Shown here: piece by piece, positions 5,420 through 14,790 of the stretch
Position numbering within the stretch: position 1 is the first letter of the stretch
Layout: every line of letters starts with the position of its first letter
Source of the DNA: Lytechinus variegatus
Lineage: Eukaryota; Echinodermata; Echinoidea; Temnopleuroida; Toxopneustidae
DNA length: 64,000 bases
Direction of reading: 5' to 3'
Assembly (NCBI RefSeq): GCF_018143015.1
Contig: NC_054755.1
Span: forward strand, 9,702,124 to 9,766,123
The notes under the pieces: model-generated
Database searches by the model: none
Seen by the model: the letters and a program-made list of their open reading frames with translations, nothing else
What the model was told of the DNA's origin: nothing
Made by a program: the position numbers and the translations under genes

Positions 5420-8400
5420 TCAGCGTCTTTTAAATGAAGAAATCTCCTCGAACTTAACGACACTCCCACCTTCGCCCCCCATGACAGGTTGATTTGAAGA
5501 GTCCACGCAGAGGTATTCTAGAGCGATAAAGGAGAAGAATTCACGTACTTAGGGAGAAAATATAGATACTGTTAGGTCATCTGTGGCTGGAAATTTCATG
5601 ATTTTACACAGCAGAAACTGTGGTGTTAACCAGTGTACATAGGGGACCACACCAGTTCTTTTACACCGGTGTTAAATTTGTGGCGTTACTTATACACCTA
5701 TAGGTGTTATTACAATACCTTTGGTTGTTACATTTACACTCTTTGGTGTTATGTTCAATCTCTAGGGTGTAATTTTAACACCTCAGGGTGTGGTCCTCTA
5801 TTAACACCAATTGGTGTCAGTTTTAACACCACAGTTTTTACAGTGTATATGGTCACAAATTACTTGAGGTCACTTCGATAGTGTTGGAAACTGATACTTT
5901 TAACAGCAATTGAAATAAAAATAAGAAACACCATGGGCCCATTGCATAAATTTTTTACCTGAGAAAACTCAGGTTGAGTTTTTGCCTTTGTTAAAGTCAA
6001 TGGCAGAAATTAGACTACCTTAGTTTTCAGTTTTTACTAGTAAGAGTTTTCTCAGGTAAAAAGTTTTATGCAACAGGCTGCATCTAATTTCTCTAAATTG
6101 AATATATAAGAGGAATTACTTTAAATTTCATTTTTGGCATGTCCTTGGGCCTTCGTCAGTGCAAAACCTTGACATTTCCAGAGACGATTCCCTGTTGGAT
6201 GAACACAGTGTGTTCACATGGCAGTGTGGACAAAGTGAGACATGAATCACATTGTTCAAATGCTCGTGTGAACACAATTCACTTTTACACTGTCGACACC
6301 AATACAACCTACGCGTTGACAGTGTGTCCACATGGTGCACTAGTACTGTATGTGAAGATGTGATTTACACCATTAAAATGCTCAAATATATAAGTGTGAA
6401 CATAACTGACACTTTGACTCCTATGCGGTATGAGTTTTCAATTTGTTCACACGATGCACTGATGTTTTAGCCTACAAGTCCTGTTTTATCCCATAGTTAC
6501 CATGGTAACAGTTCTTCTCAGCCAATCAAAACCAAGGGAAGTTGCCAGACCAGATAACTTGCTTGACAACATGTGTTATTGAAACGTTCCCCAGGATATG
6601 GTGGTGCTAAGCGAAATGTATAAAAATTCATAACTCACTTGTGAAGACACAACTTCTGAGTGTGGAGAGCACGTCATCTTCAGTCTGGTAGTAGAAGAAT
6701 CGTTCGTCGGCTTGGCTAATCTGTTTTGCATTACTTTCAACAGGCTGAAAAGAATTTCATACAAATGAAGAAAAATAACAATCCTTTCAGAAGCAAATAA
6801 TCTCTGTAGCTTTTATGATTTAATTAGTTTATTCCCAGTTAAAACAAATCATTTGTGTCATTAAATAATAATAATAATAACAACAAAAACTTCATAAGTG
6901 TGTTGTTATTTGAGTACTTGCTTCATTTGTAAAAGAAAATCTGCCTCAGGTCACGGATACTTACCCCCCTACTAAAATTCATCAAAAATAAATAAATAAG
7001 TAGGTGGGTGGGTCGGTAGGTAGGTAAAATAATAAGATTTTCAAGTTCAATAATGATAGTACCATTCATAAGCCAGGTCCTCAAAATATAAGATTAGTGA
7101 TTAATGGAAAATAATGTTGGGAAAGCAGCCAATCTGAGATGATTTCCCTGTTTGGTTATTTAAGCATTAAAAAAAACATTTATCAAAATGAAATGATGAA
7201 AATAGGAATATAAACTACTAACGGCAACCGGCAACTAAATTTGATACACCTAAACCAGCTCATGCCAGTGTCCTTTTCGTGGAGTTTTCAATTCTAATTT
7301 ATTCAATAATGTTCTATTTAAAAATGCATCATTATCATCATAATTGTTTCCATATGTTTCTCTAAATAATTTATGTGAAACTTTACACTACAAAATACCT
7401 GGAAGTATATCTTGCCATTCTTATCGACCGCCATGCATTTAGACGAGAAAGAAACTATAACAGGAGACCCATGGCTACTCTTATCCGTCTTACTAGTGTT
7501 AAAGGTGTATAGGTTTATAAGATCTGTTTGCGAAAGGAAAAACAAAAGAAAGGTAATTTGATCGTGTTGACCGCAATTGTGAAGCTAATGAATAAGTGAT
7601 GTTATTTTGGGGAAAATTGTATTAAGTAGTATCAACACCACCGTAGCCAGCAGACATCATCATATATTATCACCACTACCAACATCATCTTCACCATCAT
7701 AATCACCCCAATCACTATCATTACCACCACCATCGTCATCATCACCTCCATCATCGTCATCATCACCACCGTCATCATCACCACCACTATCATCATCGTC
7801 ATCACCACCATTATCACCATCATCATTTAACTATCACCTCTATCATCATTATCACCATCGTTACTATGATCCCCATCATTACCATTGCCAATAGCATCAT
7901 CATCATCATCACCTTCATCACAATCATCATCATCATCATCATCATCACTACCACCACCATCATCACCACCATCATTATTGTTATTGCCATGACATCCATT
8001 ATCATCATCACCACCACCAACACCAACATCACCATCATCAAAATCAAATAATCAATACATGTACCATCCCCATCATCATCATCACAAGAATCACTTTCAC
8101 TATTACTATCACGCTGCTTTACAAACTCACATCTATCCTGTTCCGTCTTGTCCTCACTCTCTTCGAGGAAACAGAGATTGCCCGCCTCGTCCAGTCCAAG
8201 ATATTTCTTCAATTTTTCGGCTTTGAGATACACTTTCTTCATCTCGTAAAGATCAACCTTTAATCCAATTCCTTTCCCTGTACGAAAAACAAGGGGAAAC
8301 ATTCGTTTGTTTTCTGAGTCTTTTGACGCATGACTGACAAAAATAAAATGAATTCAACCAGCTACTGTTAAAATATTTCACATTTCACTCACACATTTTT

Positions 8401-14400: not shown

Positions 14401-14790
14401 GAGAGAGGGCCTGGGGGATGGACAAAGTGTATATATAGGCAAATATAATAGGAGATGACGAGAGAGAACATGATGCAGTACAGATGCACTCATTAATCTG
14501 GATGCATCCAAGTGACGTAACGAGTCTGGTGTTCAATAAGAGGTTTATTACAGCATGGACCTACTAATGATTACAGTAAGCATGGACCTACTAACACAAG
14601 CCTCTAGATCTCGAATTCGCTTCCACATACTCCCTGGGATGGGAATAATGCATCCATCCACGGTATGTCTCGTAGTCATAGCTCCATGGTCAGAGTATGC
14701 ACTCGAAAACTATATCCCGTACAGTTACATACGCACTGAAAGAAACAGATAATACTCACTCGTCTTCAATTCAGACTGCCCGTTGCCCAT
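5420..14790 (-). CDS. Double death-domain protein with C-terminal IL-1/FGF-type beta-trefoil, 7 coding exons, 356 aa
   Basis: Coding exons in transcript order are 14790-14760, 10229-9972, 9045-8740, 8277-8131, 7523-7399, 6744-6639 and 5517-5420. Each has GT/AG borders, phases run 1,1,1,1,0,1, and the last ends in TGA. The protein starts [10 protein letters not shown], a plausible N-myristoylation signal with no signal peptide. Residues 12-95 ([20 protein letters not shown], then [10 protein letters not shown]) and about 105-197 ([15 protein letters not shown], then EMLTTWVRG) each resemble a death domain. Residues 199-356 match a beta-trefoil of the IL-1/FGF superfamily: [50 protein letters not shown] and [14 protein letters not shown]. 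The last block recalls the IL-1 signature that precedes a QPV-like strand. Death domains recruit partners in apoptosis and NF-kB signalling; an attached cytokine fold suggests a leaderless, intracellular signalling or alarmin-like protein (inference). Untranslated exons were not sought. The exon chain is strong; the trefoil subfamily is less certain. Confidence 0.8.
5607..5845. mobile_element. TA-flanked MITE (TAACACCACAG family), copy 3
   Basis: It starts CACAGCAGAAACTGTGGTGT and ends in ACACCACAGTTTTTACAGTG, flanked by TA. It sits in the last intron of the death-domain/beta-trefoil gene, 90 bases from the final exon. Confidence 0.8.
5935..6079. mobile_element. Short inverted-repeat MITE, GTTGCATAAA-type ends
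   Basis: GGGCCCATTGCATAAA with ACCTGAGAAAACTC is mirrored by GAGTTTTCTCAGGT with TTTATGCAACAGGC. Related ends (GGGCCC-GTTGCATAAA) occur near 45880-46030, 52290-52440 and 57145-57300. Non-coding. Confidence 0.6.
6080..6638. other. Intron sequence with diverged tandem-like segments, no gene seen
   Basis: About 6190-6470 holds two diverged versions of a segment with GTGTTCACATGG...AAATGCTC...GTGTGAACA. Open frames there (6139-6363, 6252-6470, 6128-6340) overlap on both strands and look like repeat translations. Confidence 0.4.
7632..8070. repeat. (ATC/CAC)n trinucleotide microsatellite
   Basis: Imperfect CAT/CAC repeat of about 430 bases inside the intron between exons 8277-8131 and 7523-7399 of the death-domain gene. 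It gives spurious poly-Met/Val and poly-Ile/Thr frames on both strands. Confidence 0.95.
9640..9970 (-). repeat. Degenerate tandem copies of the 3' end of the first death-domain exon
   Basis: The end of exon 10229-9972 with its donor (CCTGGATCAATGAGGCCCTT on plus) recurs as CCTGGATCAATGGGACCCTT at about 9761 and CCCTGATTTATGAGGTCCTT at about 9671. Further remnants (CTTCTCCCAGACATCTATGT, TCTCAAGAACCTTGCTTAAG) lie at about 9848 and 9916. The 9761 copy stays open on the minus strand for some 20 codons ([15 protein letters not shown]) and keeps a GT donor. Tandem duplication within the gene is the simplest reading. Confidence 0.7.
10348..10395. other. 48-base near-perfect hairpin
   Basis: ATTGGAGGGGCACTGTATTG pairs with CAATGCAGTGCCCCTCCAAT: a 22-bp stem with one G-T/A-C mismatch around a loop of about four bases. 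It lies in the first intron of the death-domain gene, upstream of the first death-domain exon. It may be a MITE relic or a small hairpin RNA source; no precursor-length evidence was found. Confidence 0.6.
10440..10880. repeat. GCGAAGCGC palindromic repeats, opposite orientation
   Basis: GAGTGCGAAGCGCTAGCTGA, GAGAGCGCGAAGCGCGACTT, GCACCAAGCGCGAGCTGA and CAAGTGCAAAGCGCGATA follow each other about every 100-250 bases. They are the reverse complement of the units in the 1-2340 array. Confidence 0.75.
10953..12760. mobile_element. hAT-like non-autonomous element with 8-bp target duplication ACTAATAT
   Basis: The ends CAATGGCGTAGACAGG and CTATCTACGCCCCTG are inverted with mismatches. ACTAATAT flanks both sides exactly (10945-10952 and 12761-12768). 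The interior has no transposase. It contains a long AT microsatellite (11016-11310) and G-rich stretches next to the right end. It sits in the first intron of the death-domain gene. Confidence 0.85.
11016..11312. repeat. (AT)n microsatellite
   Basis: About 300 bases of nearly pure TA repeat with a few interruptions, inside the hAT-like element. Length is likely to be unreliable in the assembly. Confidence 0.95.
13274..13441. mobile_element. Foldback MITE, CAGTCACATTTCCC ends
   Basis: CAGTCACATTTCCC...TACGGCGAGTCGAAAA on the left is mirrored by TTTTCGAGTCGCCGTACG...GGGAAATGTGACTG on the right, leaving about 50 bases between arms. It has no coding capacity. It lies in the first intron of the death-domain gene. 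Confidence 0.7.
14095..14430. repeat. Purine-rich (GA) low-complexity tract
   Basis: AGAGAGAGAG followed by 300 bases dominated by A and G. Frames on both strands (for example 14225-14536) are low-complexity artefacts. Confidence 0.8.

Follow-up and report, generated by a model that had tools for sequence, protein, structure and literature searches.

A seven-exon sea urchin gene with a conserved protein product

The window analyzed here is a stretch of 64,000 nucleotides (nt) from Lytechinus variegatus (GCF_018143015.1, NC_054755.1:9,702,124-9,766,123, forward strand). It contains a minus-strand gene whose seven exons, with GT..AG borders, join into 356 codons plus a stop. The encoded protein has two death domains (DD1 and DD2), followed by a C-terminal domain that resembles the β-trefoil of IL-1 and FGF proteins. 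The introns interrupt the gene at codons 11, 97, 199, and 248, after codon 289, and at codon 325, with phases 1, 1, 1, 1, 0, and 1, in that order. This reproduces the gene model of a preliminary description of this DNA, in which seven exons had been joined without a phase error into a 356-residue protein. Judging from the sequence, the decayed copies of exon material within intron 2 look as if they arose by partial tandem duplication of the DD1 exon (Table 1).

A search of the protein collection with the full-length sequence (2580 candidates, E up to 10) returned exactly three clusters, all of them echinoid and each with 100% query coverage. These homologs, none of which bears a functional name in the collection, come from Lytechinus pictus (356 amino acids (aa), 97% identity), Strongylocentrotus purpuratus (357 aa, 80%), and Diadema antillarum (367 aa, 42%). 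The four proteins are collinear from end to end, with few gaps. Compared domain by domain with the window protein, the S. purpuratus homolog shows identities of 86% (DD1), 88% (DD2), and 72% (trefoil), and the corresponding values for Diadema are 53, 37, and 43%. Because annotated proteins from three other urchins align over the full length, a chance splice or a chimera can be ruled out. Both the gene model and its conservation are established. The motif VRKG (residues 198-201), which spans the DD2-trefoil junction encoded by exons 3 and 4, is invariant in the four proteins; it may mark where a helix ends, serve as a protease site, or do neither.

At E up to 10, a full-length profile of the four proteins found only the same three echinoid clusters (7248 candidates), and a profile of the trefoil found no relatives beyond them (561 candidates), in searches that require shared 5-residue words and that distant relatives may escape. 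Among the matches listed for the open-access literature, no title or beginning of an abstract describes an architecture of two death domains and a trefoil. The order of domains in one chain, as first noted in the preliminary description, is confirmed as an observation and is conserved in echinoids. The echinoid-only search results and the papers listed agree with the suggestion that this order is new among described families. The interpretation given at the time is partly supported, as detailed below.

Table 1. Features of the window (positions are those of the 64,000-nt stretch)
Feature	Position	Strand	Description
Exon 1 (31 nt)	14760..14790	-	Start codon and 10-residue N terminus; predicted N-myristoylation signal
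Exon 2 (258 nt, phase 1-1)	9972..10229	-	DD1, residues about 11-97
Exon 3 (306 nt, phase 1-1)	8740..9045	-	DD2, residues about 97-199
Exon 4 (147 nt, phase 1-1)	8131..8277	-	Linker and trefoil repeat 1
Exon 5 (125 nt, phase 1-0)	7399..7523	-	Repeat 1 (end) and repeat 2 (first half), from profile alignments
Exon 6 (106 nt, phase 0-1)	6639..6744	-	Repeat 2 (end) and repeat 3 (start), from profile alignments
Exon 7 (98 nt including stop)	5420..5517	-	Remainder of repeat 3, from profile alignments
Intron 2	9045-9971	-	Several degenerate, incomplete copies of the DD1 exon's 3' end, downstream of that exon
Best of these degenerate copies	9762..9809	-	42/48 bases identical to the exon end, inside intron 2
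Long trinucleotide and (TA)n repeats	7650-8100, 21655-22180, 34480-34900, 11040-11300		One immediately 3' of exon 4, in intron 4
Actin-family gene, C-terminal exon	18525-19010	-	Pfam Actin E 1.3e-28
Cullin-family gene exon(s)	61780-62341	-	Pfam Cullin E 1.2e-8, 1.9e-7

Death domains and N terminus

Death domains normally operate inside the cell, in proteins that receive immune signals. The whole window protein matches Pfam Death (PF00531) in two stretches with 27.8 bits, above the gathering score of 22.6 bits, and all four proteins match this family within the E limit of 10, the best at 1.8e-7. When the domains were searched as separate pieces, as had been proposed, the outcome was mixed. DD1 of the window matched Pfam Death (E 3.4e-4) at 21.1 bits, i.e. 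under the cut-off, as did DD2 of S. purpuratus (16.1 bits), but the DD2 pieces of the window and of Diadema gave no Pfam Death match. Weak matches to Pfam DUF2388 and similar families were treated as noise. The predicted structure of DD1 has a pLDDT of about 80 and helices at 14-85, and the six-helix death fold that characterizes the superfamily is present in the protein. For DD2, the nearest structures among the matches listed are ankyrin G, p84, RAIDD, FADD, and PIDD. Sequence searches of the PDB with the death domains found nothing significant, the PIDD death-domain chains retrieved with S. purpuratus DD2 having E values of 0.98 and 1.4. The fusion protein thus contains two death domains, the second of which is identified by its structural model. 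It shares such domains with MyD88, RAIDD, PIDD, FADD, and ankyrins, and differs from these adaptors and scaffolds in having two in tandem, encoded by separate exons of phase 1-1. To our knowledge, none of these proteins carries a cytokine-type trefoil.

At the N terminus, M1, G2, N3, and S6 are invariant in the four proteins, whereas neighboring residues are variable. All four display the N-myristoylation pattern MG-x-x-x-S/T (PS00008); the presence of this motif is clear, and the modification itself is predicted. The highest mean hydropathy over any 19-residue stretch is 1.06. Nothing thus points to a signal peptide or a membrane span, which makes secretion of the full-length chain as a cytokine unlikely. 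Among the roles considered in the preliminary description, i.e. sensor, leaderless cytokine, or self-docking adaptor, the conserved myristoylation motif would favor a role inside the cell, as adaptor or sensor, rather than that of a free cytokine.

The C-terminal domain and its relation to IL-1 and FGF

Three repeats are visible in the sequence of the C-terminal 156 residues (201-356). Curated profiles match this region below their gathering scores, which are 25 for Pfam IL1 (PF00340) and 24 for Pfam FGF (PF00167). IL1 was found in only one of the four trefoils (15.5 bits, E 0.014), and FGF in three (best 17.3 bits, best E 0.005), with the best FGF match off by one repeat in register, as read from its coordinates. 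The sole curated-profile match of the Diadema domain is to an unrelated family (E 0.013). Neither the IL-1 signature (PS00253) nor the FGF signature (PS00247) occurs in any of the four proteins; one form of the former is quoted in a passage of PMC7144542. Part of another paper (PMC12108812) gives F-F and FES-PG-WF as universal IL-1 motifs. In the alignment of the four proteins, inspected by eye, urchin RFFYY aligns with the F-F region, and only the S of FES-PG-WF is retained (S320), so that the motifs do not identify the domain as IL-1. PDB searches with the trefoil, by sequence and by profile, returned no relevant match (for the profile, none at E up to 10). The predicted structure of the region has a pLDDT of 39.6; in the trefoil part of exon 4, strands are predicted with low confidence at positions 8-20, 25-29, 35-39, and 51-59 of the modeled piece. 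The first 16 Foldseek and the first 16 VIA rows are all trefoils, by title or known fold, and the structural matches listed include lectins and fascin.

Pairwise profile comparisons, which are more informative than the curated profiles, point to IL-1 more than to FGF. Against seven human IL-1 members, the urchin trefoil profile scored 30.4 over 101 collinear columns, a value reached by none of 120 column shuffles (maximum 18.5) and none of 120 block shuffles (maximum 28.8); reversal gave 10.9. Against five FGFs, it scored 23.9 with a scrambled register, barely beating 120 column shuffles (maximum 23.7; 21.4 for 120 block shuffles). Using balanced sets of 11, the IL-1 score was 24.4, which none of 200 column and 200 block shuffles reached (maxima 22.9 and 20.9). 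The FGF score of 19.4, by contrast, was surpassed by shuffles (maxima 21.4 and 21.3). Global alignment gave 14.1 over 140 columns for IL-1 versus 5.6 over 51 for FGF. The L. pictus domain alone scored higher against the five FGFs (27.4) than against the seven IL-1 members (24.4), whereas IL-1 was higher for the other three urchin domains. When repeats were permuted, using the smaller IL-1 set, the order 3-1-2 scored 27.9 and 2-3-1 scored 24.3. Compared with the other nine IL-1 members, human IL-33 scored 20.1, IL-18 36.0, and the urchin domain 24.3. In the balanced-set test, the FGF profile itself scored 27.0 against the IL-1 profile, and the urchin domain is therefore to be placed in the IL-1/FGF neighborhood and not inside IL-1.

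Of the introns that enter or interrupt the trefoil, the first three, at codons 199 and 248 and after codon 289, have phases 1, 1, and 0; an extra phase-1 intron follows at codon 325. Part of a paper on IL-1β genes (PMC4880838) states that their last three intron phases are typically 1, 1, 0, and assigns the trefoil strands to the last three exons in its text and to the last four in the legend of its Figure 3. The urchin 1, 1, 0 series matches, but it is followed by the extra phase-1 intron and is thus not formed by the last three introns of the gene. In a tool alignment, both inner IL1B introns lie two codons downstream of the urchin ones. This placement uses human IL1B exon sizes, which reproduce the phase series reported for IL-1β. 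The urchin 289/290 junction aligns exactly on S91/Q92 of FGF1 (tool alignment), which we take to be the second FGF intron, of phase 0; from FGF2 exon sizes, the FGF phases are presumably 1 and 0. In simulations with three uniformly placed introns, the chance that both inner introns match in phase was 0.0007 within two codons and 0.0014 within three. The intron agreement speaks for shared ancestry with the IL-1/FGF superfamily, without choosing between IL-1 and FGF.

Could the C-terminal region be no trefoil at all, with a likeness that stems from its β-rich sequence and from best-of-many comparisons? The missed curated cut-offs, the low pLDDT, and the unproductive PDB searches all weigh against a trefoil. 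We nonetheless regard this explanation as very improbable, considering that the IL-1 profile scores exceed all 640 shuffles (240 + 400), that trefoils fill the first rows of both structural searches, and that both inner introns agree in phase and closely in position. A trefoil of another lineage (fascin/hisactophilin or lectin type), whose IL-1 likeness is convergent, in a death-domain sensor that binds glycan or cytoskeleton, is quite improbable. Trefoils from many lineages resemble each other, lectins and fascin are among the structural matches, and hisactophilin is also myristoylated. Yet fascin (17.6), hisactophilin (14.2), and soybean trypsin inhibitor (13.0), the last two as single sequences, score far below the 30.4 of IL-1, and the urchin intron phases agree with those of IL-1β.

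A trefoil fold that shares a common origin with IL-1/FGF is thus probable. The complete IL-1/FGF trefoil claimed in the preliminary description is likely but unproven. For residues 199-356, trefoils lead the structural matches, but the IL1 and FGF gathering scores were not reached. The IL-1 likeness of the third repeat (the 14-residue stretch after STLRS) withstood the profile and structure comparison. The caution, expressed in part of PMC5861070, that a trefoil fold by itself is no proof of IL-1 ancestry applies to the urchin domain too. Compared with the IL-1 family (IL-1β, IL-18, IL-33, IL-36, and IL-37), the urchin trefoil sits behind two death domains, and the protein has a myristoylation motif and an extra phase-1 intron in repeat 3 and is without the strict IL-1 signature. 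It is an echinoid protein, whereas passages of PMC9020223 and PMC9382457 report that invertebrates lack IL-1. The sub-threshold Pfam FGF match in three of four trefoils and the intron on S91/Q92 of FGF1 are shared with the FGF family (including intracellular FGF11-14), from which the protein differs by its death domains, the missing FGF signature, and a profile score lower than that for IL-1. Because the cut-offs and signatures of both families failed, we place the protein in neither and describe it as a death-domain protein that carries an IL-1/FGF-type trefoil.

Possible mode of action and origin of the cytokine fold

We lean towards the reading that this echinoid protein is an intracellular death-domain adaptor, tethered to a membrane and with an IL-1/FGF-type β-trefoil as its effector end. 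N-myristoyl transferase would fix the chain to the inner face of a membrane, where the tandem death domains could dock onto, or nucleate oligomers of, Toll/IL-1R or PIDD/RAIDD-type death-domain proteins. Held at the death-domain oligomer, the trefoil would bind an intracellular protein partner. It might thus act without being secreted, comparably to the intracellular FGF-homologous factors or to IL-1-family members in the nucleus.

A second possibility, which we consider rather unlikely, is that the trefoil is released and acts as a leaderless cytokine. The death domains would be a pro-domain docking on a caspase- or inflammasome-like platform, and cleavage of the linker near VRKG would free an IL-1-like trefoil that exits without a signal peptide. 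The trefoil is indeed IL-1-like and C-terminal, as in pro-IL-1, VRKG is unchanged in the four proteins, and no hydrophobic segment resembles a signal peptide or spans a membrane. Against Strongylocentrotus, the trefoil is more diverged than the death domains, as expected for cytokines, but this order fails in Diadema, where DD2 is the most diverged. Moreover, the conserved myristoylation motif would hold the full chain at the membrane, the linker shows no conserved caspase site (four-protein alignment, by eye only), VRKG may be just the end of the last DD2 helix, and no free-standing trefoil relative of 86-273 aa was found at E up to 10 among the 561 candidates.

According to part of a review (PMC9020223), no invertebrate IL-1 molecule has been characterized and no orthologue has been found outside vertebrates, although IL-1-like activities have been described in echinoderms; a passage of a research paper (PMC9382457) states that invertebrates and jawless vertebrates lack IL-1. 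The urchin domain might share ancestry with IL-1 in particular, which we hold to be unlikely: a proto-IL-1 trefoil would already have existed in deuterostomes, serving as effector end in a death-domain adaptor that was tethered to a membrane and belonged to the receiving side of the pathway, and would have become a free cytokine only in vertebrates. If true, sea urchins would keep the missing invertebrate relative of IL-1, still fused to signaling domains. The unusual domain order is reportable in its own right. A conserved echinoid protein that combines an IL-1/FGF-type trefoil, IL-1 intron phases, and two death domains is a concrete molecule for probing the origin of the cytokine fold, and it bears on whether this fold first acted intracellularly and on the swapping of modules between ligands and adaptors.
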